Of a DNA stretch of 49,632 bases, positions 3,825 to 49,407 are shown piece after piece. A model generated the notes under the pieces. It saw nothing but the letters and a program-made list of their open reading frames with translations. It was not told the origin of the DNA and did not search any database. Positions within the stretch are counted from its first letter, which is position 1; the number at the start of each line of letters is the position of its first letter. The position numbers were made by a program, and so were the translations under genes. Origin of the DNA: Patescibacteria group bacterium (GTDB lineage: Bacteria > Patescibacteriota > Minisyncoccia > UBA6257 > JAKLIH01); assembly GCA_022709715.1 (NCBI GenBank), contig JAKLIH010000005.1, forward strand, positions 1-49,632, read 5' to 3'.

Positions 3825-4349
3825 ATGATCAGAAAATGAGAGACCATAGAATACGCTAAACCATCTTTAGATTTTGATTCTCTTCAGATCCAAGGAGAGG
3901 CAATTTTAGTTTCCGAGTCTTATCCTTTAGAGCTATTAATGAAAATATTATTTACTAGCATATCTTTAAGCCGGGAATTTGTTTTAGAAGAAAAAGATCA
4001 AAAATTAATTATATTTAGTCATCTACCAAAAGGCGTTCTTCGGCTAGAAAAAGTAGATGATTTTTTTATTAAAAACAATATTTATAAAAATGAATTGACT
4101 GATAATAAAATAGAATTACAAGAAATAAATGTAGAGGAATACTGGCTAAAATATAAAAACGAAAAAAATTACTTAAAAGCTATTAAAAAAACATTTGAGG
4201 AGATAAAAAAAGAAATTAAATTATCTGAAAAAACAATTATTATAGGGCCTTCTTTAAAACCATTAGTTCTTTTATTAGAGTATTATCTTTATGATAAAAC
4301 CAATGAATTATGATACTCCGAAGATAATAAAAATATAAAAATATTTTAA
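3825..4349 (+). CDS. Hypothetical 174-aa protein, helicase operon partner
   Basis: Not recognised. Reading two TGAs as Trp (residue 5 and near the end, 'NEL-W-YSEDNK') extends the frame from ATG 3825 to a TAA at 4347-4349 that overlaps the helicase ATG by one base (TAATG), so the two genes are translationally coupled. The protein is hydrophilic, with a Lys/Glu-rich helical middle and 'IIIGPSLKPLVLLLEYYL' near the C-terminus. No signal peptide. A weak TTGATT/GATATACT promoter precedes it. The coupling suggests it works with the helicase, which is inference. Confidence 0.7.
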
Positions 4350-7300
4350 TGAAAAATTTTGATTTTAAAATTTTTAGAAACAATTTAAAAGAAAAAATTT
4401 TAAATAGTCCCGAGGAAGAAAGAAGGAATATTTTAAAAAAAGCCAAACAGACAGAAGAGTATAAAGAAGCAGAAAAACAATTTCTAAATGAACTACCCAT
4501 TCAAAGATTTGAAAAAAGAATTAAAGAGGTTATTTTAAAAAATGATTCTTGTATTATAGTAGGAGCAACTGGTTCAGGTAAAACCACAGAAATCCCAGGT
4601 TATTTATTAGATGTTTTACAAGGCAAAGTATTGGTTACTCAACCTCGCCCCTTAGCGGCTAGTTCTATTTGCAAATATGTAGCTGCTAAAAGAAATGCTT
4701 TAGTTGGCCAAGAAATTGGCTATCAAATAAGATTTGATAACCATACTACTGAAGGTACTCGCTTAAACTTTATTACGGATGGTATATTTTTAAGAATTGT
4801 CCAATCCAACCCTCTTCTAGAAGGATATTCAGCCGTTATGATTGACGAGGCTCATGAAAGAAGCCAAAATATTGATTTTTCTTTAGGTCTGCTTAAAGAA
4901 GTCCAAGCCAAAAGAAAAGAAAAAGGATTACTTTCTTTAAAAATTATTGTTAGCTCGGCTACAATTGAAAAAGATAAATTTAGCCAATATTTCAATTCCC
5001 CATCCTTAGAAATTCCAGGTAGATTATATCCTGTGCAAATAAGCTATGAACAAATAAATCCTGAATTAAAAGAAATACCTTTTTTAGCCGCCAAACAAGT
5101 TCAAAATATCCTAGAGAAAAACTCTCAAGGCGATATTTTAATTTTTATGCCAGGGGAACAAGAAATATCAGAAACCATAAAAGAAATTAATAATCAAATC
5201 GTTAACAAAGAAAATATAGAAATCCTTCCTCTCTATGGTCAAATGGATCCAGAATCTCAAAACAGAATATTTCTTAAAAATGGAAAAAGAAAAATAATAG
5301 TTTCTACTAATATAGCTGAAACTTCTCTTACTATTCCTGGCATAGTTTATGTTATTGATTCTTGTCTAATTAAACAGATGCAGTATTATCCTGATAAAGG
5401 TATTCAATCTTTAGAAGTAATTCCTCATTCTCAATCTGGATTAACTCAGAGAGCCGGAAGAGCTGGCCGTATACAACCAGGTTTTTGCCATAGATTATGT
5501 TCTGAAAAAAATTTTAATAACTTAGTTAAATTCTCTACACCAGAAATTATTAGGTCTAATCTCGCCAATGTTGTCTTAGCTATGAAAAATTTAAAAATAT
5601 CACCAGAAAATTTTGATTTTATTGATAAGCCAGAATCTAAAAATATTCAAGAAGCAATGGCTACTCTTACAGCTATAGGGGCCTTAGATCAAGATGGGAA
5701 TATCACTAAAGAAGGAAAAATTATGAATGAATTACCTCTAGAGCCTCATTTAGGAAGAATACTGGTAGAATCAGAGAAATATAATAATACTGATACCATG
5801 GTAACTATAGCTTCTTTTCTAAGTGGGAAAAATGTTTTTGTTAGACCCAAAGAAAAAGCTTCTCAAGCTGATGAGAAACATAAACAATTTAAAAATTCTT
5901 CTTCTGATTTTCTTACTTTCTTAAATATTTGAAAAGCTTATGAAAAAAATAATTATAATTATAAATGAGCTAGCGATAACTTCTTAAATCCAAGAGTTTT
6001 AAATGAAATCAAAGAAATACGATTTCAACTTCTAAGAATTCTTAGAAATCATAATATCAGAGCTGAAAAAAATGAAGATCCAGATTCAATTGGTCTTTGC
6101 ATCACCGCCGGTCTTTTGGATAAATTGTATTTTAATTCGGGTTCCAATATGTATACAAAAAAACAAGATGACTTTGGTTCATCAGCAATATATATTCATC
6201 CATCTTCGGCTTTATTCTTAGAGTGTCCCCCGATATTTGTTTGTAGCACAATACTTAAAACTAGCAAACCATTTGCTCTTAACTGTCAGCCAGTGAAAAA
6301 AGAATGATTATTTCCACTAGCTCCCGAGCTTTTTGATCTAGAATCATATCCTGAATATGATAGCGGAAAAGATGAAATAATTATGCATAATGTATATTCT
6401 CTTTCAAAAGGACGTGTCCGGGAAAGGGTATCAACAACAACAGAAGCAAAAGAATCAGAAAAAACTTCCAAGGTTTATTTTGAAGGTGATTATGATTTTA
6501 TCAAAAACTATATTCCAGAAAGTAACAAGATTGTTTTTGATAATTTTAGCAAATTATATACCAAAGACAAACAAAAACAGGGATACAAATCATGAACTCG
6601 TGATCCAAATGAGTATTACATATTTTTATTAGATAAAATTTATTCTCGCAAAGAATTTTTACAATCTCTAGAGGACGGAAAGTTTAACTTGGAAGTTAAA
6701 TTAGAGGATTTAATATCCATTGATGATCAACAACGTATTAATAAGGAAAATCCAGATGATATTATTATTAATAATACTACTTATCAAATAAAATATTCTT
6801 TAAATTGCTTTCATGAATATGGAAGAAGTATTGAAATTACAATGAAACCAGAAGATTTTGTTTTACTCCAATCATGACCTCAATTACCATCTCAAGAGCC
6901 ATTAAATATTGCAATTGAACATACTAACAGCATTTATCAATCTTCAGGAGCAGACCTAGAGAGTTTGAAAAATAATATTTTAAAAGATATACAAAAATCT
7001 CAATTTTATCAAGCCAAAGAAAATGGTTTAATAAAAGAAAAATTTATTCCTGATTTCTCATTAGATAAAGATATTCAGTATTATTTAGATTCACCTATAG
7101 AATATGGGTTAAATCCCATTGATAAAAAACCTTTTTTAGCCTACTCAGGATTAGGTATTAATACAATTTCATGATCAGGCGAAAAAAAGTTGTCTATAGA
7201 TGCTGATATTGATGATTACGATGATATTGATATTAAGATATATTCTAGATACTTTATCGACCCAGAAGAAGCTCAAAAAAATACAGAACATACTATCAAG

Positions 7301-8356
7301 ATATTAAAGGAAAAAAATAAACAGGGTATAGTTGAACAAAATATTCCACAAATAACGGAAGAAATTGAAAAAATTAAAGAAGAATTAAAAGAAGTAGAAA
7401 ATAAATGGATGTCTGACTATAAAGGACCATTACAAAATTTAACTGTAACTCATATATATGATTTACAAGATTTAATAGATCGTTGTGAAAGAGCTAAAGA
7501 AAGAAAGAGATGACTTGAATTCCAAACAACATTTGATCAACTTAAGGAATTATTACAACAATATGAAAAGGTAAGTCATAATATGGAAATGATTTCTCAG
7601 GCTGTTAGCGAATATTATACCAATTGTCCTGTTTGTAATCACCGTACTGGATCTCTATTTGAATGTTCGGAAAAACATCCTGCCGAAAAATTTCGAAATA
7701 ATGAAAAAGAGTTTTTATTAACAGGAATTGTAAATGAAAGAGATGAAATAGTGGCTGGTGCAGTAGCTATTAGAAATGAAGGATCGTCATATTCTAGTTA
7801 TAGAGTAGAAATATTAGCAAAGACAGATACTGGATATAATCGTCTAAATTATCTTGATGAGAATGTTTGAGATGGTAAAACTCCTTTTGAAACATTGCAT
7901 CTTAAAGATTTTAATAATATAAATAATATAAAAACTATTCATGATCAACACCAACAAGAAATGATACGATACTATAATGATCATCCTTTAGAATATGACA
8001 AAGATGTAGAAAAACTAGAACGTGCTATAATCGAGAGTAAACAACATCATAAAGGGAAATTCAAAAAAGGTATTAATCCTATTAATGGTGAAGAATCTTG
8101 ATATACAGAAATAAATAACACTCGTTTCTTTTTAGATTTAGTTACAAGTTCATTAATTCCTAGTTCAGAAAATCTAGAATATTTTTTCTATACTAAAAAA
8201 TACAGTGGAGGTTCAGATTGTCGTGCCTATCTTATTGAACCATTACCAGAATATAAACCCAACAATAATGAGCCAGAATTAATAGACGATTCAAGCAAAG
8301 AGTCAGTAGCTGATCTTGTCGAACAGTGGAAACAAAAAAATAAAAAACTTTCATAA
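4349..8356 (+). CDS. hrpA: HrpA-like DEAH-box RNA helicase, 1335 aa
   Basis: ATP-dependent RNA helicase of the DEAH/RHA family. Seen: Walker A GATGSGKT (residues 72-79), DEAH (166-169), SSATI motif III, TNIAETSLTIPG motif V and QRAGRAGR motif VI, then the winged-helix/ratchet region and an OB-like region (FVCSTILKTSKPF). Nine in-frame TGAs occur against only two TGG; the first three fall at family Trp positions ('LNI-W-KAYE', 'YK-W-ASDNFLNPR', 'KKE-W-LFPLAPEL'), which supports UGA=Trp. Residues beyond about 680 form a long extension unlike E. coli HrpA, with a possible zinc site (NCPVCNH...FECSEKH, near residues 1090-1110) and coiled-coil segments. Ends TAA. Confidence 0.9.
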
Positions 8357-9177: not shown

Positions 9178-10689
9178 CTAATTTTTTCAATCCAAAGTTA
9201 TAGACATGTCCAGTAATGGGAGCAATTCGAAACACTTGTTATATTGAACCATCGTATTGAATGGTTCTTTTATTGTAAATACTAGCTGTTTGTCATTTAG
9301 TTGTAGGTTCTGAAGTAAGAAATTCAAAAGTCGTCTTTTCTCATTCACTTCGGAACTATCAAATATCTCTCTGGCTTTTTTAGCCAAATTAAGCACTAAA
9401 CTCGCAGTTAAATAGAAATCTTCATCGGCGTTTGTATATCTTGATATTTCTTCTTGAATTTCTATTTGTCTTTCTTTTCATTCTTTTAATTTGGCATCAA
9501 AAACATCCTGGGGAACTTTACCATCCGCCAGCAAATTAAAAGAAGCACTTATTCTTTTATCTATTTGGTCATATTCTTTATGCAGATTAGATAAAGCCAA
9601 TTGGTGGAATTGGTCCTTATCTTGATTAGTCTTTTTTAGACATTCGGTTATTTCTTTAATTTGTTCATCCTCAAAACTTATACTATCCAAAAACTCATAT
9701 ATCGATGATAACAAATCTTCCTCTTTAATATACAGAACTTTTTTGTGGACCCTTTTATAATTTGTGCAATGATAATAATGATGTCCCTTAGATGTTTCGG
9801 GTGTTATCATACAGCCACATTCAGCGCAAGTAATTAATCCTCTAAACATATATGGTTTAGCTCCATATATAAATGGTTTCTTATGATATCCCAATAAAAC
9901 ACTTTGGCATCTGCTAAATAAGTCCTTGGAAATTAATGGTTTGTATTTATGAGAATATATTTTATTCTTAATTCTCATTACACCATAGTAAAAAGGATTA
10001 TTTAATATTACATGTATCATGCTTTTGGTTAATGGTTTATTTCTACCGCTATTTCCAACCAATCCTAACTTTTTCATTTCCTCAACAATTTCTAATAGGG
10101 AATAATTGCCAGATGAATACATTTCAAATATTTTTATTATAAAGGGAGATTTCTCTGGGTCAGGAATAATATTTCTTTCTTTATCTTTCATATTTATATA
10201 TCCGATAGGGGATTTACCAATTCATTCTCCAGCTTTAATTTTGTTCTCATAAGCTCTTTTTACATTATCGCTAATAGCATCGGAATAATATTTAGATAAT
10301 CCTAATTGCATTCCAAATTGGAATTTTTGACCAGCTGATATGCTTGAATTAATAACAAGGTTATCGGAAACAAAATGAAGCTCAATTTTATCGGTCATCG
10401 CTAAATCATATAAAGTAGCTACCCGCTTATCAAATACATTACGAGAAAACCTGTCTACCTTATCAAAGCAAACTGCAGTTTTTTCTTTATTCGTTTTTGC
10501 TATCTCTATAATTTTATCAAACTCATTCCGCTTTACTTTATAAGCGCTTTCATCAAAACTAAATACCTCCATAATCTCGAGGTTTTTATATTGGCAATAT
10601 TTTTTTAGACGTTCAATTTGGGCTGGTAAAGAATTACCAGCTTCTTTTTGCTCTTCGGTTGAAACCCGTGCCAAAATTAGTGCTTTCAT
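9178..10689 (-). CDS. Large serine recombinase (site-specific integrase), 503 aa
   Basis: Catalyses DNA integration/excision through a serine nucleophile. The N-terminal resolvase domain starts MKALILARVSTEEQ, with Ser10 as nucleophile and an Arg at 8. A recombinase domain follows ('GE-W-IGKSPIGYINMKDK', where the TGA falls on a family Trp), then a zinc ribbon (CAECGCM...YHC, about residues 290-315) and a C-terminal coiled coil. Three TGAs are read as Trp; the last lies two codons before the TAG at 9178. Its 3' end overlaps the 12-base repeat CAATCCAAAGTT that also closes the element at 20133. Upstream lie a TTGCAA/TATAAT promoter and an interleaved inverted repeat. Confidence 0.9.
9188..9199. 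repeat. Candidate attachment site, left
   Basis: CAATCCAAAGTT, exactly repeated at 20122-20133. It lies within the last codons of the serine recombinase gene. Confidence 0.6.
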
Positions 10690-10710
10690 ATTAATAATTT
10701 AATTTTTACT

Positions 10711-10832
10711 TAAAAGGACAGCCCTGCTGTTGAATAGAGACACTTGATCCAGCAAAGAATCAAATATCACTAAACAGGACTGTCCTTTTAAAAAGGTGAT
10801 AATTGTATTGCTGGCTATATCTCTATTCAACA
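10711..10832. repeat. Interleaved inverted repeats upstream of the recombinase
   Basis: Arms in order A-B-A'-B'. A (10711-10726) pairs with A' (10775-10790), 15 of 16 bases. B (10728-10740 plus CCAGCAA at 10749-10755) pairs exactly with B' (TTGCTGG 10808-10814 plus 10820-10832). Because A' lies between B and B', the transcript from the promoter at 10838-10866 could form a pseudoknot or two exclusive hairpins in the recombinase 5' UTR. It could alternatively be a DNA-binding or recombination site. Confidence 0.75.
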
Positions 10833-10837
10833 TCTTA

Positions 10838-10866
10838 ATTATACCGTAATTTCATTTAATTTGCAA
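10838..10866 (-). promoter_or_regulatory. Promoter of the serine recombinase
   Basis: Minus strand TTGCAA (10861-10866), 17 bases, TATAAT (10838-10843). The predicted transcript has a ~145-base leader containing the interleaved inverted repeats. Confidence 0.75.
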
Positions 10867-11062
10867 GTCAAGGAGATGGTTTTTCATTTTCTTTACTATT
10901 TTTAGGTTTATTATAATATTCTGGGTGATTTCGCATATCAATTTTAAGCAACAAATAAAAAAACTCTCTTAGATTTTGTTCAGTTTCAAAACCTTTTTCT
11001 CGATGATTATTAAGATAATCTAGGTTTTCTTGAATTTTATGGACTTGTTGCTTCAATTTCAT
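10856..11062 (-). CDS. Small helical protein, 68 aa
   Basis: Not recognised. A charged, predicted helical protein (MKLKQQVHKIQENLDYL...) ending in a Pro/Lys-rich tail. The first TGA (10868-10870) is read as Trp, extending to TAA at 10856, inside the -35 region of the recombinase promoter. No Shine-Dalgarno is seen. Position between ATPase and recombinase suggests an accessory element gene. Confidence 0.55.
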
Positions 11063-11164
11063 AGGATATTGTTAAATTAAATGAGATAATTTTTTTATAA
11101 CCATTAAGGATTGGACAAGGTATTTTTTAATTTTATAGCGTATTGGTAAAATACGTTTTTACTA

Positions 11165-11331
11165 TACATCTCTTACACTACGTCCTGTTATTAAACTGAT
11201 AAGCAGTTTTATTTGGTGTAGGAGTGTAAAGTGTAAGAGTTCTGGTGTGTAATAAACATATACATTAAAAATCTTACATTTCATTTTCTTTGTCGTTATC
11301 AGTGTTGTTGTCAGTTGGTGTAAGAGATGTA
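11165..11331. repeat. GTGTAAGAG repeats near the ATPase 3' end
   Basis: TACATCTCTTACAC at 11165-11178 is the exact reverse complement of GTGTAAGAGATGTA at 11318-11331. A further GTGTAAGAG is at 11231-11239 within GTGTAAAGTGTAAGAG. The copies span the 211-base gap after the ATPase gene and its last codons. They could be initiator-binding iterons, operators or a transcript fold. Confidence 0.45.
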
Positions 11332-12767
11332 GGTTCGTCGGCTGTTTTACAGTAACTGGTATAAATGTTTTCTACTTTGTTTTTTTCAAACTGATATCTT
11401 ACTCCGTCTTTAGTGCGGGGTTCTTTTCTAGACGCTAGGTTAAATTTTTTAATTGCTCAGCCAACTTTAACGGCTTTTTGTTTAGGGGTGTCTCCGGGTG
11501 CTCAAATTTCATTTTTAATTATTGAGCTTATTTCTATTGGAGCTAAAATAACCTCTATTTTGTCTTTTAATTCACTTAATATTACTTTAATAACTTCTTC
11601 TTCTAGCTCAGAAGGCTCGTACTCACTAAAGCTATACCTTGAAAGAAAATGTGACTTTGCTTCTTGTATTTTATCTTGCATTCCGGTGCTTTCAAAAACT
11701 ACTTCAAATGGTAATCATAATTCTAAGCTTCTTCCCAAGATAGCTTTATTTTCTTTGTAAGATCGTTTTTTTATAAAATAGTAAGTGCTTACTAATTCGT
11801 ATATAGCTATTAATAGGGTATAGAGCTTGCCTCTTATTTTGCGCCAATCTTCGTTGTCGTCGTCAGGGTCTGCAAAATTTCTCCGGCTTCTTATTAATGG
11901 AAGCTCTAAGCATCTATCTCTTAGGTCCTCGGGAAGCTCCCTAATGGATGCAAAAGCTTTTGGTCCAAATGTTTCAAGCTCTATAATTTCACGGTTTTTT
12001 CCTTTATCAAAAGCAATAATTCTTCTTTTGCCACCACTTTTTTTATAAGAATCAGCTAAAATATCTAATAAATCTTCTCCGCCTTTTCTTTCAAGGGAAT
12101 CGGCTTGGTCAATTAGGCAGGTTCCTCTTAAGGCATCTACTGTATCGCCTAAAGCTGCTACACTTGGTCGAGCTTTTATGGCGTTGAAGCAAAGTTGAGT
12201 AAGCAAGCTAAGGCATTGACTTTTACCTGAACGCTTAGGGGCTTTTATGTGGAGGAATGGATAGGCATAAAAAATAGGGAAAAAATACGTTCCAATAATT
12301 CAGGCAGTTAGTAGATAGTAATTTATTTCTTGCCCCAATTCAACGTATTTTTTAGTAAGAGATAACATTTCTTCAAATATTGTTTTTGGGGACATATTTA
12401 TTTTAGATTGGTTGTAGTATTTTGCGAAATCTTTTAGAGATTGGATGCTCCATTTTTCTTCAATTCGAATTAATTTTCTATTTCTTTTTTCAAAGTAGTA
12501 ATTTTTTTCTTTTCTTTCAAAAGAATCAGCATCTGTAGTTTGAACAGTTCCATCGACTACTACTACAAAAATATTCTTTTCTTCTCTTGATTTTGAACGA
12601 TAGCGAAAACCAAGAGTAAGGGTATTATCTTTTATATCCAAAGAGGGATGGAGGAACTCTCCATCAAATACTTCTATCTGGTCTTTGTTTTGTTGTATTA
12701 CCTTAGAATCTTCTTGTGAAAGAGTATTCTCTAAAGCTTGTGAATCTTGATTCATATTAATATTCAT
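11274..12767 (-). CDS. Plasmid-type AAA+ ATPase, 497 aa
   Basis: Four TGAs read as Trp join two long fragments into one protein. The Walker A motif APKRSGKSQ (about residues 176-184) lies just after the first junction ('LLTA-W-IIGTYFFPIF'), followed by Walker B-like GTCLIDQAD (about 215-223) and a sensor region with ELPEDLRDRCLELPLIRSRR. This layout resembles DUF3987/DUF3631-type and primase-associated helicases of plasmids and phages. A replication role for the element is inferred. Later TGAs fall at 'LEL-W-LPFEV', 'NEI-W-APGD' and 'KVG-W-AIKKFNL'. ATG 12767 chosen; a second Met lies at residue 5. Stop TAA. Confidence 0.75.
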
Positions 12768-12887
12768 TTATAATTTTTATTAATCGCCCCTTTAAGGGCT
12801 TATTTATAATAGGGTGGTATTTTATTGCTTAAAGCTAATAAAAACTCGTTTAAGGGGCAATTTATGCTTCAAAATGCCGTTCCTCAG
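12768..12887. promoter_or_regulatory. Structured region upstream of the ATPase gene
   Basis: GCCCCTTTAA (12786-12795) and TTTAAGGGGC (12849-12858) form a near-perfect inverted repeat around an AT-rich stretch with TATTAT on the minus strand. It may be the ATPase promoter with an operator-like repeat, or an RNA hairpin in its leader. Confidence 0.45.
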
Positions 12888-13103
12888 CTATGTTTTAGGA
12901 TTACTCAATATATATAATTGATCTAATAGGGTCTTTTTATCCTTTTTGTCATAATCATCCTTATTAACTAATTTATTAAATCAAATTTGGATACTTTCCT
13001 TATTAAACTTTTGTTGTTTTATTGCCTCAGCAAAGCATATATAAGAACTTCAATATGGGTTCTTATTTGATATATCGTCAAATCTTCGTTGTATTGATTT
13101 CAT
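12888..13103 (-). CDS. Small hypothetical protein, 71 aa
   Basis: Visible only with UGA=Trp: MKSIQRRFDDISNKNPY-W-SSY, then 'SIQI-W-FNKLVNKDDY', ending TAG. Composition is charged and helical. The 'IW FNKLV' segment resembles short regulators of CPR mobile elements, but no family is recognised. It lies in line with the upstream DUF5659-like gene (11-base gap) and the downstream ATPase gene, so a common transcript is likely. Confidence 0.6.
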
Positions 13104-13113
13104 AATACTATAT

Positions 13114-13410
13114 TTATAAACTATTATGGATCATTGATTTCAAGAGTTCGATTTTGTCAAATAATACTCTAGCGGGGACCATTAATTGCCCAGAGAAGTA
13201 TTCATCGATCGTGTCTTCAATGTCGTATTCTTTTTTGATAATAAACAAAGCCTTGCTAGGATGTTCCTTATCTATAGAAGTTAATTCGAATCCAATACTT
13301 AGAAGAGATGCAACCAACCCTAAATCTGTAGAATAGAAATAGTTTTCCGTATCATTGAGGGGTATATATACAAGTTCATCTTGTTTTTGCCACATTTGTT
13401 GTTTGTTCAT
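13114..13410 (-). CDS. DUF5659-like protein, 98 aa
   Basis: The segment FYSTDLGLVASLLSIGFELTSIDK, then KALFIIKKEYDIEDTIDEYFSGQL, resembles the DUF5659 family common in CPR genomes and often near mobile genes; its function is unknown. One Trp, TGG (residue 7). Stop TAA. No membrane segment. Likely first gene of the ATPase transcript. A palindromic stretch at 13482-13516 (ATTACT/AGTAAT within ACTCT/AGAGT) lies upstream and could be an operator. Confidence 0.65.
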   Translation of the reverse strand: MNKQQMWQKQDELVYIPLNDTENYFYSTDLGLVASLLSIGFELTSIDKEHPSKALFIIKKEYDIEDTIDEYFSGQLMVPARVLFDKIELLKSMIHNSL

Positions 13411-13546
13411 AATCGTTAATTTAGATTAATATTAATTTGTTAACTCGACTTTTATTTTTTCATAATCATTGTAACAAATACTCTCCAGATTACTTTAATG
13501 GAGTAATACAGAGTAAGAATTGTTATTATTAGCAGGATTTATTAAT

Positions 13547-13572
13547 AAAAAAGAGCGTATTTAACGCTCTTC
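13547..13572 (-). terminator. Terminator of the 502-aa gene
   Basis: Minus strand AAGAGCGT / ACGCTCTT stem followed by TTTTTTATT, 40 bases after the TAA at 13610. Confidence 0.85.
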
Positions 13573-13609
13573 CAAATAGAAATTATTTTCGAAATTAAAA
13601 CACTCTTCG

Positions 13610-15118
13610 TTACTCTTTTTCTAACCACATAGTTTTATGTTCTTTATTTTTGAATTTTATCAATCCTTGTAACCCCGTTTTATTTTTTTGAAGTTGTTTT
13701 TTAGCATAAGTTATAATCTCTCATTTTCTATTTTTAGATTGTGGTGAATATTCTTGTAAGTCTCTTTTTTTATTATCTTTGTCTTTTCTTATAGCTTCAA
13801 AAATACCTTCAATTGTTTTTTCAACTCCAAAATGAGGTTCACATAAACACTGTAGTAATCGAAAATGGCGAGAATCCTTTTTTCCAATTAAAATAGATTT
13901 TGTCCCTTTGCCAATAGTAAAATGCCCTAGATTCTTTTTGGTAAAAGTATAAGGGTCATTTTTGTCGAAGCTATTATTATTGTTGTTATCTGCCGTGTTT
14001 ATGGCTTTCTCTTGTTCGATTTTTATAATAAAATTCTTGAGTTTCTTTTCCATTGTCAGATTAACTTTTATACCCGAATCTGAATGAAAGCCATTATTAG
14101 TTAACGGGTATACACAAAAACCGTTTATTTTTATGTATTTTTCTTGCTCTAATTCTGTTAGTATTTGTAATACTTTTACGCGACCATTATCAGAATTACC
14201 ATAGTCTAATGATAAAATAAGATCTCGTTCTTTTTCTAGTTCCTTGCTTTTCTTATTTATTGTTTGGATTAAACGAGTTTTTTGTTTAGTTGATGAATAT
14301 ATGTTTTCTAAATCTAAACTAGATTTTTCATACTCTTCCATTTGATATTGTATAAATTTAGATCAATATATTTTACTTGCTTCTATTTCTATAAGCATCT
14401 GTATAATATAACCTCCGGGGCATATACTTCCATTAATTATTGTTTTTCCATTCCATTCAGATTTTTGTTGCTTTATATCTATTTTTTTTATTTCAATTCA
14501 TTTGTCCTTTTTTAATTCCTCAATTTTATCAAAAACAGATTGTATATAAGGTAATGTAATTTTACCCATTTCATCCGCCAAGGTATCTATAGTATGGCCA
14601 CCATAATTTAAGATAGTCTCTAGTTCTATATCATTAGAACATAATTCGTCTAATACTGAAATGTAAAATATTTGGCCATTATCATCAGTAAAATTATGCC
14701 ATTGCTTGTTACGAAACAATCCATTAATTATACATTCCATTGCTAACACTGAAGGTGCTTTTTGAGTAGCTTGACTTAGAAGTGTAATTTTAGGAGTAAG
14801 CATTGTTTTATAACAAGCATATTTTTTATCAAATTCCGGTTGCTTTATCGTAATATCAAATACAGTTGTATTAAAAAGATCGCCACCCCTTAAAATATCG
14901 TTAACTGGCATACAATTAATTATTCCTTCATTTTGTAATAAATTTAACAGTTTTCTCTGAGTGCTTATATCGGGTCCAGAAATATATTTAGATACTTTTT
15001 TATCAAAATTTCTCAAAATAAATTCAATTTTTGAATTTTTTGGAACTAATAATGCTTCTTTTTTTAGCTCTTGTAAAATTCATCAAATCCTTTTGTTATG
15101 TGTATGTTCAGGATCCAT
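13610..15118 (-). CDS. Hypothetical 502-aa protein of the integrated element
   Basis: Joined across TGAs read as Trp into one frame from ATG 15118 (MDPEHTHNKRI-WW-ILQ) to TAA 13610. No family recognised. The middle is coiled-coil-like (SKELEKERDLIL), preceded by helical segments reminiscent of winged-helix DNA-binding proteins (KVLQILTELEQEKYIKING). The C-terminal 'FTIGKGTKSILIGKKDSRHFRLLQCL' looks like a second compact domain. A role in DNA binding or element maintenance is inference. It has its own promoter, divergent from the methylase, and its own terminator. Confidence 0.7.
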
Positions 15119-16468: not shown

Positions 16469-17566
16469 ATGAAAATTGAACTACATAAAATTCCAATTAG
16501 CAAGGTGATAGCGGGTTATAAAGACAATTTTGAAGAAGGTGTGGTAGCTTATAATAACAAATTAGATATTCGCCCAAAATACCAACGAGAGTTTGTGTAT
16601 AAAGAAAAACAACGAAATGCTGTAATAGAAACTATTAAAAATAATTTTCCACTAAATGTAATGTATTGAATGGTTAGAGAAGATGGCGGCTATGAAGTAT
16701 TAGATGGCCAACAACGCACTATTAGTATTGGGCAATATGTAAACGGTGAGTATTCTCTTAACGATCGTTTTTTTCATAATTTAACAAAGGAAGAACAAAA
16801 TATAATTTTAGATTATGAATTAATGATTTATTTTTGTGAAGGCACAGATGTAGAACGTTTGGATTGATTTAGGATTATTAATATTGCTGGTGAAAAATTA
16901 ACAGAACAAGAAATACGTAACGCTGTTTATACAGGGCCGTGGTTAAGTGATGCAAAACTTAAATTTAGCAAATCAAATTGTGTGGCATATCTTTTAGCAA
17001 ATGATGGTGGTAAATTAGTAAGTGGATCTCCAATAAGGCAAGATTATTTAGAAACTGCGATCTCTTGAATCAACGATGGTGAAATAAAAGATTATATGGC
17101 TAAACATCAGCATGATAAAAACGCTGAAGAATTATGAAAGTATTTTCAAAAAGTGATTGCGTGAGTAAGGAGGGTTTTTATAAATTATCGCCGTGAAATG
17201 AGCGATGTAAATTGAGGTGAATTGTATAATAAATTCAAAAATGAGAAATTAAATGTTCAAAATTTAGAAACTGAGATTAAAAAACTAATGCAAGATGAAG
17301 ACGTCACAAAAAAATCCGGAATTTATCCATACGTTTTAACTAGACAAGAGAAACACCTTAATATTCGCTCATTTACAGAGAATATGAAACGTGAATCATA
17401 CGAAAGACAAGAAGGTATTTGCCCAATGTGTAGAGATAAAAAACACTGAGATATTTTTGAAATGGAAGCTGATCATATAACGCCTTGACACGAAGGTGGA
17501 AAAACAACAGCGGAAAATTGCCAAATGCTGTGCAAAGAACATAATCGTAGAAAATCAGGAATCTAA
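16469..17566 (+). CDS. DUF262-HNH endonuclease, probable restriction partner
   Basis: A 365-aa protein joined across about ten TGAs read as Trp. The N-terminal DUF262 domain shows the DGQQR motif (VLDGQQRTISIGQYV, about residues 74-88), used for nucleotide binding/hydrolysis in GmrS-like proteins. 'NAVYTGP' and 'LSDAKLKFSKSNC' follow. The C-terminal HNH domain has CPMC, 'EADHITP-W-HEGGKTT' and NCQMLCKEHNRRKSG with the zinc Cys pairs and catalytic His. The TGA in ADHITP-W is a family Trp. Two bases after the methylase stop, so a type II-like restriction-modification pair is the likely reading. Stop TAA. Confidence 0.85.
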
Positions 17567-21041: not shown

Positions 21042-21821
21042 ATGAAAAAAATAACATCCAGTGGTCAGTATTTTATTAATTGTGTAACCGTCACAGGAGC
21101 GGACGACTATAACGATCCTAACGAAATGGCGGATATTTTTTCTAAGTATCCGTTCGTTGAATTTGGGATATTGTTATCCAGCGATCGTCTAGGTAGTACA
21201 AGATTTCCGTCCATTAACTGGTTGAAAAAATTGTATGATTTTACTGCTTCTGATAGAGTTCATTTAACCGGCCACAATATGATCAATTTATCTGGACATA
21301 TTTGTGGTAAATGGGTTAGAGAACTGTGTGTAGGGTCAGATAAGTTTTTCGAAGAGATGGATCCTGTTTGGAGAATGTTTAGGCGTTTCCAATTAAATTT
21401 TCATGCACAACCGCATGAATTTTTGGAAGACAGGTGCTCAAATGTAATTAAAAAATATTTGCCATCAACACCTATCATTGTCCAAATAGACGGAGTAAAC
21501 GATCACATTCTTAACGATTTGCGATCAAAGGGTGTTAACGCTATTCCATTATTTGATAAATCCAGTGGAGTGGGTTTATTACCAGATCATTGGCCGCTCC
21601 AATCGGTTGGTGTCTATAGCGGTTACGCCGGAGGGCTTTCTCCAGAGAATCTAGCAAGGGAAATCGTAAAAATTTTTAATGCAACTTGTGGACCAATTTG
21701 GATCGACGCCGAGACTCGGCTAAGGTCATCCTTTGGTCATGAAGGCGCCAGAATCGGAGATCGTTTTGATCTTCAGAAAGTTTGTTCATTTTTAGAAATA
21801 GCAAAACAGTGGATTGTCTAA
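21042..21821 (+). CDS. TIM-barrel-like protein (phosphoribosylanthranilate isomerase-like)
   Basis: A 259-aa cytosolic protein. Segments VEFGILLSSDRLGSTRFPS, TPIIVQIDG, VNAIPLFDKSSG and 'YSGYAGGLSPENLAREI' followed by 'GPIWIDAETRLRSS' look like successive strands of a beta/alpha barrel. The GGLSPENL phosphate-loop-like motif recalls PRA isomerase (TrpF). The catalytic Cys/Asp pair of TrpF is not clearly placed, so the reaction is uncertain. All six Trp are TGG, stop TAA, terminator follows. Cassette-style gene. Confidence 0.7.
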   Translation: MKKITSSGQYFINCVTVTGADDYNDPNEMADIFSKYPFVEFGILLSSDRLGSTRFPSINWLKKLYDFTASDRVHLTGHNMINLSGHICGKWVRELCVGSDKFFEEMDPVWRMFRRFQLNFHAQPHEFLEDRCSNVIKKYLPSTPIIVQIDGVNDHILNDLRSKGVNAIPLFDKSSGVGLLPDHWPLQSVGVYSGYAGGLSPENLAREIVKIFNATCGPIWIDAETRLRSSFGHEGARIGDRFDLQKVCSFLEIAKQWIV

Positions 21822-23177: not shown

Positions 23178-23245
23178 TTGACAAACTGTATGAATTATGA
23201 TACTATAATCTCATAAATTTGTTCTTTAGAAAAGGAGAAAAGCAC
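23178..23245 (+). promoter_or_regulatory. Promoter and leader of the HbpS-like gene
   Basis: TTGACA (23178-23183), then TACTAT at 17 bases overlapping TATAAT at 20 bases, then AAATTTGTTCTTT and AAAGGAG. The -35 directly follows the T tail of the preceding terminator. Confidence 0.8.
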
Positions 23246-23701
23246 ATGATAATTATTGGCGAAAAGTTGGTTGATGCAGCGGTTAGACTCGCAAGCCATA
23301 GTATTGAGAAAATACTAGATGATCCTCGTTTTGTTTGGGGACCTAAGTATGTTCATGTTACTGTTTTATTGCCAGAAGAACATTATTCATATGTTATTGG
23401 TAATGAAACTGAATGGGATCCAAAATGGCCAGAGGAGCCATGCGATATCAAGGCCTTGGCTTTTGAGAAAGCCAGAATTGCAAGAAGAGAGAAAAATGAC
23501 ACGAGTGTTTTGCGTGATTATGCTCCCTGGTTATTCAAGCAAGGCGAGAATTCATACGCTGGAGGCATATATTATGGCAATATTAGTATTGGCGTATCAG
23601 GTGCGAACGAAAACACTGATGAGAATATTGCCAAGATTATCATGACTTGCATTTTTTTGCATGCCCACGCGAAGGCAGAAGAATTAAAAAAAAGTTCTTA
23701 A
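23246..23701 (+). CDS. GlcG/HbpS-like domain protein
   Basis: A 151-aa cytosolic protein. Helix IKALAFEKARIARREK, the loop 'GGIYYGNISIGVSGANENTDENIAKII' and the compact length fit the GlcG/HbpS alpha/beta fold, whose members bind haem, cobalamin or small acids. The ligand here is unknown. Start set at ATG 23246 after AAAGGAGAAAAGCAC. All four Trp are TGG, stop TAA. Neighbouring purM and the TIM-barrel gene share its expression architecture. Confidence 0.65.
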   Translation: MIIIGEKLVDAAVRLASHSIEKILDDPRFVWGPKYVHVTVLLPEEHYSYVIGNETEWDPKWPEEPCDIKALAFEKARIARREKNDTSVLRDYAPWLFKQGENSYAGGIYYGNISIGVSGANENTDENIAKIIMTCIFLHAHAKAEELKKSS

Positions 23702-31797: not shown

Positions 31798-34722
31798 ATG
31801 GATTTTGAATTATTATACAAAAGATTAAATTTAGAACAAAAAAAGGCCGTTGATACTATCGAAGGTCCAGTTATGGTAATTGCTGGTCCTGGCACTGGCA
31901 AAACTGAAATTTTAACTCTTCGGATTGCCAATATTATCAATAAAACTCAAATTGAAGCCGAAAATATATTAGCTTTAACTTTTACAGAATCTGGAGCGGC
32001 ATCGATGAAGAAAAGATTAATCTCTATCATGGGTAGCAAAGCCTATCAGGTGAACATCAATACTTTTCATGGCTTTTGTAATAAAATTATTCAAGATTAT
32101 CCAGAATATTTTGAAAATATTGCTGGTTTTATTAATATTGATGAAGTCAAACAAATCGAAATTTTAAAACAAGTTTTAGATTCATTAAAATTAGAACATT
32201 TAGTCACTTTCAATAACAATTACTTTTATTTAAGAGAAATCAAATCGTCCATCGAAGAATTAAAAAAAGAAAGTATTACTTATTTAGAATTACGTGATAT
32301 AGCTGAAAAATCTAAGCAAGATTTTGAAAATAACGAAGACAATTATAATTCCAAAACTAAAAAAATCAAAAGTCAAGTTAGCCAATATTATAAAACCATT
32401 TGTAAAAATATTGAGTTAAGTTATATTTTTGAAAAATATCAAGAATTAATGAACAGATCATCTTATTATGATTATGCTGATATGATTATCGAAGTTTTAA
32501 ATACATTTAAAAAAGATAACGACTTATTATTAATTATTCAAGAGCAATATCAATATTTTTTGGTTGATGAATATCAAGATACAAATACTAGCCAAAACAA
32601 AATTTTAGAATTATTATGCAATTTTCATAAAAATCCCAATGTTTTTATTGTTGGCGATCCCAAACAAGCTATTTTCCGTTTTCAGGGAGCTAGCATTCAT
32701 AATTTTGATTATTTTAAATCTCTTTATCCATCAGCTGTAATTATCGATTTAATCAATAATTATCGATCCAGTCAATTAATACTTGATTCGGCTTTTTATT
32801 TAATTAATCGCGATAAACAATTAAAAAGTTGCGTTAAACAAGAAAATCAAAAAATTCAAATTTACACTTTACCTAGTCCCAACCAAGAGGCCTATTTTGT
32901 AATAACCAAAATCAAAGAATTAATAAATAATAACGTAGATTCTAACAACATAGCCGTTTTGTATCGCAACCACAAAGATTCGGATATTTTGGTAGAAATG
33001 TTAGAAAAATTTCAAATTCCTTTTAGTATTAAAAAGAAAATTAATATTTTTAACGATCTAGACATTAAAAAACTACTTTTAATTTTGGATACCATTTATA
33101 ATTATGGCAATGATAGTTATTTATTTAAATGTATGCACATTGATTTTTTAAATATCAATCCACTAGACACCTATAAAATTATTAATTATTGTCAACAATA
33201 TAAAATCAATGGTTATGATTTTTTAAATAGTCCGATCGATATCGATTTAGTTTCTAAAGATAAAATTATATTTTTAAAAGAAAAATTAAAAGATTGAAGC
33301 GTTTTGGCCAATAATATTTTATTTTTAAATTTAGTTGATACCATCATCAAAGATGTTGAGTTTTATAATTATTTACAAACTAGCGACAATGTCGTTGACA
33401 AAATTGATAAAGTAGATGGTTTTTTTGATCAAATTAAACGAATGGCTCAAACTCAATCAAACTTTATGCTGGCTGATTTTATTAATTACTTAAACATTGT
33501 TCAAGAAAATTCAATTGATATCAACAAAGAATCAATTTTAGGTGATACTAGTGGCGTAAAATTAATGACGGCTCATCACGCCAAGGGACTAGAATTTGAC
33601 CATGTTTTTATCATTGGCACCACCACTAATAAATGAGAAGGTAAAAACGTTCGTAATCGGTTAAAATTATTACCTCAAATTTATAAAGTCAGTCAAATTG
33701 AAGAAAGCGAAGAAAAAAATTTATTTTTTGTGTGTTTAACTCGTGCCAAAACCCAATTATATATTACCAATTATTCGGCTGATGAAAGTGGCAAAATTGT
33801 TATTGCTAGTTCGTTTATCAATGAAATTAAAGACGAATATAAAGAAATATTTAACATTGATTTAAGCGACAAATACCAAAAAGAACATATTCATTTTCTG
33901 GTTAATGCCAATCAAAATCAAAGTATCAAAGACAAGGAACTAGTCAAAGAAATTTTTACCAAAAACGGTTTGTCCGTTACCGCTTTTAATAATTATTTAG
34001 AATGTCCCTGAAAATATTTTTATCGCAATTTATTTAGATTACCAGAAATTCAAACCAAGCCCCTAATCAAAGGTGATGCCATTCATGGTGCTCTAAAAGA
34101 TTTTTTTAATCGCCATAAAGAAGAGGGTAGGCCAACTAAAGAATTTTTGATTGAAAGATTTATTTACCATTTAAATCGTTTTCCATTGAGTGTCAATGAT
34201 TTTGAACAATTATCTACTGAGGGTAAAAATATTTTAAGCTCCTATTATGATTTTTATGATACTTTTCATGAAAATGTTTTAACCGAATTTTCAATTAGTG
34301 GTATTATTTTAGACAAAGATATTCGTTTGACAGGTAAATTAGACAAATTAGAATTATTTGAAAATGGCCACGTCAATGTTGTTGACTATAAAACTGGCAG
34401 AGTTAAAAGTGAAAATGAGATTTTAGGTAAAACCCAAGCTGGGGATGAAAATTATTATAATCAATTAAAGTTTTATGGGTTATTGCTCAAATATTATCAA
34501 AACGGTAAGTATATTATGGACAAAGGTATTATTGATTTTGTTGAGCCCAGTGACAGTCAAAAACACACTAGACGGCCATTTACCATCTCAAGCCAAGAGA
34601 TCGATGAATTAGAAAAAGAAGTAAAACGTGTTGGTAATGAAATACTCAATCTTTCATTTTGAGATAAATATTGCGATAACAAAGATTGCGAGTTTTGTAA
34701 ATTAAGAAAAATGATGAAATAA
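31798..34722 (+). CDS. UvrD/Rep-family helicase with C-terminal RecB-type nuclease, 974 aa
   Basis: SF1A DNA helicase for repair or end processing. Seen: Q motif LNLEQKKAV (residues 11-19), Walker A AGPGTGKTE (~30-38), TFTESGAASMKKRL, motif II LVDEYQDTN, motif III VGDPKQAIFRFQGA, NNYRSS, and 'TAHHAKGLEFDHVFIIG'. The C-terminal PD-(D/E)xK domain has LTGKLDKLE and VVDYKTGR. Cysteines in 'YLECP-W-KYFYRN' plus CDNKDCEFC could hold a 4Fe-4S cluster, as in AddB/Cas4. Four TGAs are Trp, one at the YLECP-W family position. It resembles a single-chain AddA-like enzyme. Stop TAA. Confidence 0.9.
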
Positions 34723-35019: not shown

Positions 35020-35472
35020 ATGACTAAAAAAACTATTTATTTTTTAATTGTATTAACAATACTTGTTACTAGTTTTTTTGTTATAAAAAATTATTTAAAA
35101 AGAGTAAATAACAATACAACTACAACCACCACTACTTTATCTCAAATCGGTGGTAATAAAGATAGTCATGGTTGTTTAGTCGGGGCCGGATATCAATGAT
35201 GTGAAAGTAGTCACGAATGCCAAAGATTGTGAGAAGGTAAGTGCAATCCCGATTTTATAAAAACTGTTACTTTTGTTGATACCAAAGATGGCTTAGTCAT
35301 TTATTACGAAGAACCAGGCAAGCCCGCTTTAACCAAAAGTTTTATTTTTGATAATAAATGCGCGGTTAATAATAAACTTTGCAAAAGTTTAGATATTCCG
35401 ACTGGTAGCGTTAGTAAAGTCCAAGGTATAACTCTCGATGATTACATTTTAATTACTTCGCTAGAATTTTAA
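35020..35472 (+). CDS. Membrane-anchored Cys-rich envelope protein, 150 aa
   Basis: N-terminal TM (IYFLIVLTILVTSFFVI), a Thr-rich linker (TTTTTTT), then 'GCLVGAGYQ-W-CESSHECQRL-W-EGKC'. This motif, with both Trp, recurs in CPR exported proteins next to inhibitor-like domains, and both Trp are TGA here. The C-terminal half is beta-rich (TVTFVDTKDGLVIYYEEPG). Probably surface-exposed; function unknown. ATG 35020, TAA 35472, two bases before the next gene. Confidence 0.75.
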
Positions 35473-41283: not shown

Positions 41284-41312
41284 AAAAACCAGTGATTAAT
41301 CACTGGTTTTTA
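41284..41312. terminator. Bidirectional terminator
   Basis: AAAAACCAGTGATT / AATCACTGGTTTTT, a perfect 14-bp palindrome between convergent genes. Confidence 0.9.
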
Positions 41313-42332
41313 ATTTTTTCCAAAAACGGATGGCAAACATTTTTTAAGTGGTTTGATTAATAAAGAAATTATACCAATTGTAATAACGACATAAACAATG
41401 CTCATCATTAATAATCTATCTTGTCAAAATGGCATTGGTTTTAAAATTTTATCTAATATTCAAAACACCAAAACATGCAAACCAAAAAAAGTTAAAGAAT
41501 TTCTACCAATAAATTCTAATATTTTTTGTCTATTTATTATTTTTGAAATTTTTAATATTGATCATATGCCGGCCACTGCCAATACAATCAAAGAAATATA
41601 ATAAAACATACTATTATTTAATAACGCTTTGTTTCTAAATATTTTATCAAATCAAGTTTTATTCACAATTACCAAAAGATTTATCGATAGCATTATTATC
41701 CACATTGCGTTTTTAACTCATCAATTTAATTTAGTAATATCAATAAACTTATTTCTTACATAATAGCCCAATGCCAAAAAGATTAAATAAAAACAGGCAT
41801 TATCCAATGTTCAAAACAGTTTAGGGTTGTATAGTGTATCTCAAGCCATTACAAAATATCATCCTAATATAAACATAATGATTAATTCTAATCATCATCG
41901 ATTGATTTTTCTTATTCAATAAAAAATATTTTCGGTTATAAACAAAGTTGGTAAAAATCAAAGCGGTATATTATAGAATATTTGATTGCGAGTGGCTAAA
42001 ACAAAAACTTTTAACATATTTTGAATTGTTATATAATCATTTCCTGGCATGCGGTAGTAGAACTTATAAAAAATTACAGATATAATTGATAGTCCCAAAT
42101 AGGGGATTAATATTCCTTTTAAGCGCGATTTCAAAAATTGTCAATAATTTTGATACTTAGCCAAATTGGTAAGGTAGCCGGCCACAAAAAAGAACATTGG
42201 CATATTAAATATATATGTATAGCTGGCAATTGATTCACCAATAGCGCTATGACCAAGCATAACAAAAACAATGCCAATACCTTTAGCAATATCTAAAAAA
42301 TATTTTCGATTGTTTTTCTGTGTATTTTCCAT
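41310..42332 (-). CDS. Acyltransferase 3 family membrane protein, 340 aa
   Basis: Multi-pass (about ten TMs) O-acyltransferase of cell-surface glycans. The start 'RKYFLDIAKGIGIVFVMLGHS' carries the family motif (D..KG..I..V..GH, catalytic His) and 'FNMPMFFFVAGYL' the F..PLFF..SGY motif. About fifteen Trp in its TM segments ('KINR-WW-LELI', 'PL-W-FLPT', 'LN-WW-VKNAM-W') are all TGA, so it is invisible as one gene in the standard code. Acyl donor and glycan unknown. Confidence 0.85.
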
Positions 42333-44680: not shown

Positions 44681-45637
44681 ATGAAATTTGCTTGAAACAA
44701 AATAAAAAAACCGGTCTTTATTTTAGGTCCGATGTCCGATATCACAACATTACCTCTTATGAAAATATGTAAATATTTTGGTGCTGATATTATATTTTCT
44801 TCTATGGTTTCAAGCCATGCGGTTGTTCATGAAAATCAAAAAACTTTTAAAATCATTGAATTTACTAAGAAAGAAAGGCCAGTTATTGTTCAACTTTTTG
44901 GCTCTAGCAGTGAAGACATGATCAAAGCTATTAAAATAATTGAAAAGAAAATTAAACCCGATGGTTTTGATATCAATCTTGGTTGTCCAGCCCCCAAAAT
45001 TGTTAAAAATATGTGTGGTTCAGCTTTTTTAAAAGATTATAATAAAGCTTTTGAATTTGTTAAAAAAATTAGAGAAAATTATAATGGTCAACTGTCAGTT
45101 AAAACTCGTTTAGGTGTGAATAAATTTGATGTTTTGCCTTTATTAAAAAAATTTGAAGAAATTGGAATTGATGCCATTACTATTCACGGTCGCACAGTCA
45201 ATCAAAAATATATTGGTAAATCCGATTGAAAAAGTATCCATGAAATTGCTGATCAATTAAAAATACCTGTAATTCTAAATGGTGATATTGTTGATCAAAA
45301 AACTGCCCACTTAGAATTAAAAAAGAGCAATATTAAAGGCGTTATGGTTAGTCGTATGGCTATGCAAAAACCCTGGGTTTTTAAAGAATTTAAAATTAAA
45401 AAAGATTACTATCCTTCAAATAAAGAATTGGTTAAGATTATCAAGCTTCATATGAAATATTATTTGATGTATAATAAAAACAAAGCTTTTATTGAAATGC
45501 GAAAATTTTTAGGAAGTTATTTAAAAGGCTTTAACCACGCCAAAGAATTACGCAAAATGGCAGTAAGTATAAACAATCAAAATGATTTTAACAATCTCTT
45601 AAAAAAGATTAATCATGAATATTTATCGCAAAAATAA
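44681..45637 (+). CDS. dus: tRNA-dihydrouridine synthase
   Basis: FMN/NADPH-dependent reduction of uridines in tRNA D-loops. 318 aa. Seen: 'PVFILGPMSDITTLPL' (family APMAGVTD), 'RPVIVQLFGSSSEDM', DINLGCPAPKIVKNMCGSAFLKD (active-site Cys and FMN contact; cited in two parts: NLGCPAPK and GSAFLKD), SVKTRLG, AITIHGRT, then 'KSD-W-KSIHEIA' and NGDI. TGA gives Trp at residue 5 and at the KSD-W family position; KPWVF uses TGG. No Shine-Dalgarno. Its end overlaps the next gene by 23 bases. Confidence 0.92.
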
Positions 45638-46176: not shown

Positions 46177-46989
46177 ATGAACGTTAAAATAGCTTGGTTT
46201 GGTAAACATTTTGGGGAAGAGCCAATTATATCCGGTATTAATGGATCGGGCACTATCTTTTTTTCTGGTTGTAATCTCCATTGCCAATTTTGTCAAAATT
46301 GACAAATTTCTCAAGATTGAATTGGTAAAGACTATACTATAGAAGAATTAGCCGATATTATGATTGAGCTTGAATCCCAAAAAGTTCATAATATTAATTT
46401 AGTAACCCCTAGTATTTGAATTGATCAAATTAGAGAAGCTATTATTCGAGCTAAAAGTAAGGGTTTGCATATACCAATAGTTTACAATACCAATGCTTAT
46501 GATAATATAGAAAAATTAAAAACCCTGAATGGTTTAGTTGATATTTATTTACCAGATTTTAAATATAGCGATAATTTTATAGCTGAAAAATATTCTCAAA
46601 TCAAAAATTACAAAGAAATAGCTTTATCTTGTATATTAGAAATGTTAAATCAACAACCCAGAAATATAATAGAAGATAATATTATGAAACAGGGAGTCAT
46701 TATCCGTCATTTAATTTTACCTAATAATTTAAATAACACTAAAGAATGCATAAAAATTATTAATTCTTTATTACCCAATATTATTTTAAGCTTAATGACT
46801 CAATATAACCCCATGTATAAAGCTAGTAACTTTCCAGAAATCAGTAGACCTTTAAACGATTTAGAATACAATGAAATTATGAATTATATATCGCAATTTA
46901 ATTTTGCAGAAATATTTTATCAACCACTAGAAGCCAATGCCAAAGATACATTTAATCCTGATTTTACAAAAGAATTTCCATTCGCGTAG
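46177..46989 (+). CDS. Radical SAM activating-enzyme-like protein, 270 aa
   Basis: 4Fe-4S radical SAM enzyme related to pyruvate formate-lyase activases (AmmeMemoRadiSam/PflA-like branch). The cluster motif FSGCNLHCQFCQN (Cys 32, 36, 39) is followed by W-QISQD; this Trp, standard in the family, is TGA, as are two others. INLVTPS and 'YNTNAYD' follow (family NLVTPTH, YNT..Y), then VDIYLPDFKY, GVIIRHLILP and LMTQYNP as in the family. Length is typical. The protein target is unknown. Third gene of the dus operon. Confidence 0.9.
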
Positions 46990-48174: not shown

Positions 48175-49407
48175 ATGATATATGATCTAGTTGTTATTGG
48201 CGGTGGTCCAGCTGGCATAATGGCTTCAACCATCGCTTCCCAAAACAAAAATCTTAAAATTATAATATTAGATCGCAACCGTGTTTTCGGTCGCAAACTT
48301 TTACTTACTGGCAAAGGCCGTTGCAATATCACTCATAATGAGTTGGATTTTAAAAAAATGATTGCCAGTTACAATCAATCCGCCAAGTTTCTTTATTCTG
48401 GATTTTCTCAATTCGGCGTTAAAGAAACTTTGGATTTTTTTAAAAAGAATGGTTTAGATCTAAAAGTTGAACGGGGCAATCGTTATTTTCCAAATGATGG
48501 TGATAGCCAAAGCGTTTTAGATTTCTTTAATTTGAAATTAAAAGAAAACAATGTTGAGATGTTGTTTAGTGTTAATGTTGTTAAAATCAATGTAAAAAAT
48601 AAAAAAATTATATCCATTGAACTTAGTGATGGTAGGGAAATCGAAGGCAAGAATTTTTTGATTTCAACCGGCGGTAAGTCTTATCCGATTACTGGATCGG
48701 ATGGTTTTATGTTTAGTTTAATTAAAAAATTAGGTCACAATATTATTGATCTAACTCCAGCCTTAGTACCACTAACTGTAAAAAATGAATGAGTTAAAAA
48801 ACTTTCTGGGCTTTCTTTAAAAAACGTTGAAATTACAATTAAAAATACTAAGAAAAAAATATTAGGCGAAATGCTATTTACTCATTTTGGTATATCTGGT
48901 CCAATTGTTTTAAATCTTAGCAATGGTATTGTAAAATTGCTTACAAAGGGAAATATTTTTATTAACTTAGATTTAAAACCAGGTTTAACTGAAAAACAAC
49001 TTGATTTACGTTTGCAAAAAGATTTTGAAAAATATAGCAATCATGATTTTAAAAATTCATTAAATGATTTATTGCCTCAAAATCTTATTGAATCAATTTT
49101 AAAATTGTCCAATATTGATATTCATAAAAAAGTTCATCAAGTTACTAAAGAAGAAAGATTAAAATTGATAAAACTTTTAAAATACATTGAAATTGAAATC
49201 AATGGTCATTTAGGTTTTGATACCGCCATTGTTACTTCTGGTGGTGTTGATACCAAAGAAATAGATCAAAAAACTATGAAATCAAAAATTATTGATAATC
49301 TATATTTTGCTGGTGAAGTTATTGATATCGATGGTAAAACAGGAGGCTATAATTTGCAAATGTGTTGAACTACTGGTTATTTAGTTGGTAAAAATTTTGT
49401 TAACTAA
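48175..49407 (+). CDS. BaiN/HI0933-family flavoprotein, 410 aa
   Basis: NAD(P)/FAD-dependent oxidoreductase-like protein. The N-terminal FAD site DLVVIGGGPAGIMAS (residues 4-18), 'RKLLLTGKGRCNITHNE' (family GKKLLITGGGRCN.TN), NRYFPNDGDSQSVLDFF, 'FLISTGGKSYPITGSDGF' and C-terminal LYFAGEVIDIDGKTGGYNLQMC are diagnostic; 'HFGISGPIVLNLS' also fits. Two TGA-Trp codons, at 'NE-W-VKKLSG' and 'QMC-W-TTGYLVG' (family QWAWSSG). Some relatives act on bile acids or tRNA, so the substrate is open. Stop TAA. Confidence 0.9.

Follow-up and report, generated by a model that had tools for sequence, protein, structure and literature searches.

UGA as a probable tryptophan codon in a family of Patescibacteria

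What does TGA mean in a Patescibacteria contig whose genes seem to be cut again and again by this one codon? The window, i.e., the whole stretch of 49,632 nt analyzed here, is contig C53 of a genome of 900,236 bases in 107 contigs (G000, 98.78% complete). A sequence-only reading of the window had proposed that UGA encodes Trp and that this would be a different, possibly undescribed, reassignment in a CPR lineage. Such surprise was reasonable because a 2021 Codetta screen listed no Patescibacteria with UGA=Trp: it gave this meaning for Mollicutes and insect symbionts alone, and UGA=Gly for Gracilibacteria and Absconditabacteria (PMC8629427). Of that proposal the Trp-type CPR code stands and the novelty does not, since the main text of Fakih et al. 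(NAR, 20 April 2026; PMC13092985) describes a UGA stop-to-Trp reassignment in the Patescibacteriota family JAKLIH01. Here, we report evidence that UGA is a normal Trp codon in this family, almost certainly JAKLIH01, through a tRNA-Trp(UCA), the loss of RF2 and codon capture, a reading to which we assign a probability of roughly 0.96.

Genes joined across TGA in the window

The gene for an HrpA-type DEAH helicase (4349..8356, plus strand, 1335 aa) carries nine in-frame TGA codons; table 4 gives a single ORF and table 11 halts it at 5932. Every frame that had been quoted as broken only by TGA exists, and table 4 joins the pieces into complete genes, whose proposed names agree with Pfam. Besides the helicase, these are a large serine recombinase with Resolvase, Recombinase and Zn ribbon domains (9178..10689, minus strand, three in-frame TGA), a GmrSD_N and HNH endonuclease gene (16469..17566, plus strand, eight in-frame TGA and one TGG), a UvrD helicase fused to a PDDEXK nuclease (31798..34722, plus strand, four TGA and no TGG, with TGA 34009-34011 in the motif YLECP-W-KY), a tRNA-dihydrouridine synthase or Dus (44681..45637, plus strand, two TGA), a radical SAM protein (46177..46989, plus strand, three TGA), and a BaiN/HI0933-like flavoprotein (48175..49407, plus strand, two TGA at 48790-48792 and 49366-49368). 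The frame with the motif GYQ-W-CES encodes a small protein (35020..35472, plus strand) and has two in-frame TGA, and an Acyltransferase_3 membrane protein (41310..42332, minus strand) has the highest TGA count among the window genes, 14 with one TGG. Altogether 39 chosen window genes contain 103 TGA and 65 TGG, and their terminators are all TAA or TAG.

Two groups of genes in the window deserve separate mention. The serine recombinase and its neighbors at 9178-15118, two of them without a Pfam match, contain TGA in frame; this block, which looks mobile, is thus already adapted to the recoded genome. Four other genes, at 21042-21821, 23219-23701, 23817-24935 (purM), and 29090-30385 (purC-purE fusion), have 39% GC and 22 TGG with no TGA, versus 103 TGA and 43 TGG in the remaining listed window genes (Fisher p 6e-11, the four genes having been picked post hoc). 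By their codon use they look like recent acquisitions from a standard-code donor, and TGG-only genes could flag recent gene transfer in this genome.

Release factors, tRNA genes and distribution in the order

The sole full-length release factor of the genome is RF1, which scores 424 bits against the RF1 model (cut-off 400), 420 bits against the prfA model, just below its cut-off of 423, and 268 bits against the prfB model, below the cut-off of 370; a 262-bit match in the release-factor search is likewise RF1, and a short protein with the GGQ motif is ArfB. The closest match of RF1, at 86% identity, lies on a Patescibacteria group bacterium contig of the same genus (JAKJEE010000010.1), the next matches being at 46%, and therefore the lineage belongs to Patescibacteria, not Mollicutes. 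The proposal had named the absence of prfB as a check, and no RF2 above cut-off was found in the whole genome at 98.78% completeness, nor in any of the four genomes of its family. The RF1 gene (contig C20) itself contains three in-frame TGA, and the single-copy trpS (contig C75) contains two.

A tRNA-Trp(UCA) had also been named as a check, and a 75-nt tRNA(UCA) gene with the acceptor features of tRNA-Trp is present at C20:18597-18671, beside a single copy of tRNA-Trp(CCA) at C20:31289-31361. Both genes start with AGGGGC and end with GCCCCTG, giving the pair A1-U72 and the discriminator G73, which are features of known bacterial tRNA-Trp; the acceptor sequence of the three tRNA-Gly genes is unlike that of tRNA(UCA). 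A second tRNA-Trp(UCA) of the family was found in another member (G003, C18:2370-2443). In neither tRNA(UCA) gene do positions 27 and 43, at the top of the anticodon stem, form a pair: G000 has G27-A43 and G003 has A27-C43, which leaves a 4-bp stem, and tRNA-Trp(CCA) of G000 has G-U there; please note that positions 27:43 were assigned by hand and that the minimum-energy fold of the G000 tRNA(UCA) shows no full cloverleaf. The main text of PMC13092985 discusses 4-bp anticodon stems of tRNA-Trp(CCA), a tRNA whose stem it gives as 5 bp in JAKLIH01; it also refers to a tRNA-Thr in which a naturally occurring G27-A43 mismatch raises UAG readthrough. Our guess, drawn from two sequences, is that the 27:43 mismatch may aid the UCA tRNA here, and it is possibly a small addition to the published case.

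Three tandem tRNA-like genes lie elsewhere in the genome, on the minus strand of C1:34819-35099 between rplL and a transketolase gene. One has the anticodon UUA (it would read UAA), one has an unreadable anticodon loop, and the third is weak; a CCA end is encoded in two of them, and the UUA one is without the usual D- and T-loop consensus. The other genomes of the family gave no match to this stretch. As UAA is the main stop in this genome, the three genes are probably degenerate relics or remnants of a mobile element.

We then consider the distribution of the recoding in the order, for which 244 genomes of 27 families were surveyed. It is apparent only in the four-member family, where coding density rises under table 4 in 4/4 genomes. 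The strict tRNA-Trp(UCA) pattern occurs among the 244 genomes only in G000 and G003, bar one match in G238 that does not resemble a tRNA; the two family genomes without a detected tRNA(UCA) are incomplete (85% and 55%). Among the other families, most genomes have a strong RF2-type match without in-frame TGA. Nine RF2-poor genomes from these families, whose RF-type matches are weak, single or lacking, were considered as further recoded lineages and rejected, their density barely shifting or shifting as it does in GC-rich relatives; they are standard-code or merely incomplete. Five genomes at least 95% complete (G021, G030, G044, G161, and G163) have no clear RF2 match, four of which (G021, G044, G161, and G163) look standard-code by density; their RF2 may have diverged, be missing from the assembly or be truly lost. 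As far as tested, the other families of the order retain the standard code.

According to the main text of PMC13092985, JAKLIH01 comprises four genomes of order UBA6257, class Minisyncoccia, two of which have tRNA(UCA); RF2 is absent, UGA does not serve as a terminator, and the family is the only such UGA-to-Trp lineage within the phylum in those data. The family studied here likewise counts four genomes; two of them have tRNA(UCA) and none has an RF2 above cut-off, and for these matching features it is almost certainly JAKLIH01. The two agree in phylum, codon, amino acid, RF2 absence, UGA not serving as terminator, tRNA(UCA) in 2/4 genomes, and a tRNA-Trp(CCA) with a 5-position anticodon stem; in the features tested against that text we see no difference. 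The 27:43 mismatch of the UCA tRNA, the 244-genome survey and the UGA codons in RF1 and TrpRS were not found in the main text of that paper. One may argue that our family is a different one, i.e., that UGA-to-Trp arose a second time, independently, in Patescibacteriota, in this instance with the 27:43 pair lost from the tRNA-Trp(UCA) genes. We consider this improbable: the profile of genomes, tRNA(UCA) and RF2 is the published one, the family sits in one large, otherwise standard-code order as JAKLIH01 does, and the published data hold a single such lineage.

Amino acid at the TGA sites

For a genome-wide test of the codon, about 537 kb of G000 (30% GC) was compared with 400 kb each from the same-order relatives G227, G042, and G185 (36-48% GC), each with an RF2-type gene free of in-frame TGA. 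ORFs of 150 codons or more give a coverage of 0.376 with TGA as a stop and of 0.733 with TGA as sense (for the three relatives this switch gives only 0.771 to 0.824); counting TAG as sense leaves the coverage nearly unchanged. With TGA as sense, the terminators in the sample are TAA (216) and TAG (46), and TGA accounts for 340 of 408 Trp codons (83%), TGG for 68. No clear case of TGA as a required stop was found among 123 C-terminally anchored genes, in contrast to the matching genes of the relatives, 28 of which do end in TGA. TGA-containing tails numbered ten before overlapping shadow ORFs were removed and three afterwards, of which one is a long extension past the end of a shorter ORF in the relative and the others consist of one last residue each.

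Conservation at TGA was scored against these three partly sampled relatives and not by Codetta. After removal of the shadow ORFs, the majority residue in the relatives at 225 well-aligned TGA sites is Trp at 149, Phe at 11, Tyr at 10, Leu at 10 and Gly at 4. Where at least two relatives cover the site (n=96), Trp is invariant at 60 and no invariant Gly is listed (0/103 before the filter). Genome-wide, these counts exclude chance. As a control, TGG is opposite Trp at 22/42 sites. Dual Cys/Trp decoding of UGA was considered in view of 21 Cys-majority sites in the first count and was dropped because these vanish with the shadow ORFs.

For the comparison of single sites with solved structures, TGA was masked as X. 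The TGA codons had been placed on family Trp positions, which holds for most sites genome-wide and for several structure-checked ones: HrpA TGA 540 (5966-5968) and 653 (6305-6307) are opposite Trp of DHX15, among the solved homologues, and Dus TGA 183 (45227-45229) is opposite Trp in PDB 1vhn, the closest solved structure. Recombinase TGA 10222-10224 is Trp in one relative. It does not hold for HrpA TGA 528 (5930-5932), which is opposite Tyr of DHX15, nor well for the second BaiN TGA, which is Trp in only one of three compared.

These columns decide for Trp rather than Gly. The Gly code known from Gracilibacteria and Absconditabacteria (class JAEDAM01) would fit a small, low-GC genome of the same phylum, where a UGA reassignment is known (PMC8629427). 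However, the TGA columns already refute it, the acceptor sequence of tRNA(UCA) is that of tRNA-Trp and not tRNA-Gly, and relatives within the order possess RF2 and show the coding density of the standard code, so that a Gly meaning is hardly credible. Findings that had been named as contrary to the Trp reading, i.e., Gly columns, a tRNA-Trp(CCA) alone with an intact prfB, or a place in Mollicutes, did not appear.

Just as implausible is that the window is a Mollicutes contaminant or a recoded phage within a standard-code genome. Mollicutes do share the UGA=Trp code and phages can recode; yet pooled stretches of more than 12 other contigs show the same code, the genes for RF1 and TrpRS contain TGA on contigs other than that of the window, and RF1 has its close match in Patescibacteria. 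The least credible reading is selenocysteine at some UGA sites, suggested by the ARAGORN label 'tRNA-SeC', which was given from the anticodon alone, and opposed by a 75-nt tRNA with a short variable arm, not the shape of tRNA-Sec, by no selB over cut-off in the genome (weaker matches are probably EF-Tu-like GTPases, as controls match likewise), by several hundred UGA codons mostly opposite Trp, and by the loss of the Cys signal.

Proposed reassignment and comparison with known codes

For UGA as Trp, we propose that the codon would be read by a dedicated tRNA-Trp with the anticodon UCA, whose retained tRNA-Trp acceptor features would let the single TrpRS charge it, and that tRNA-Trp(CCA) would still read UGG. 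With RF2, the UGA terminator, lost, RF1 would terminate at UAA and UAG. Codon capture in an AT-rich genome, occurring once at the level of the family, is the most likely origin of the reassignment. One phylum would then hold the same stop codon reassigned twice, to Gly in JAEDAM01 and to Trp here, with close standard-code relatives at hand for comparison with the recoded family. Annotation of the family genomes needs table 4; table 11 makes their genes look broken.

Among known systems, Mycoplasmatales/Entomoplasmatales (NCBI table 4) share UGA=Trp, tRNA-Trp(UCA) together with tRNA-Trp(CCA), RF2 loss and low GC, but their lineage is independent and belongs to a different phylum (Bacillota). 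Gracilibacteria/Absconditabacteria (NCBI table 25) share a UGA reassignment within Patescibacteria and the loss of RF2, whereas the amino acid is Gly rather than Trp, the class is another and the tRNA identity differs. The insect symbionts Hodgkinia, Nasuia, Zinderia, and Stammera also read UGA as Trp; they are, however, Pseudomonadota with extremely reduced genomes, and Zinderia is without tRNA(UCA).
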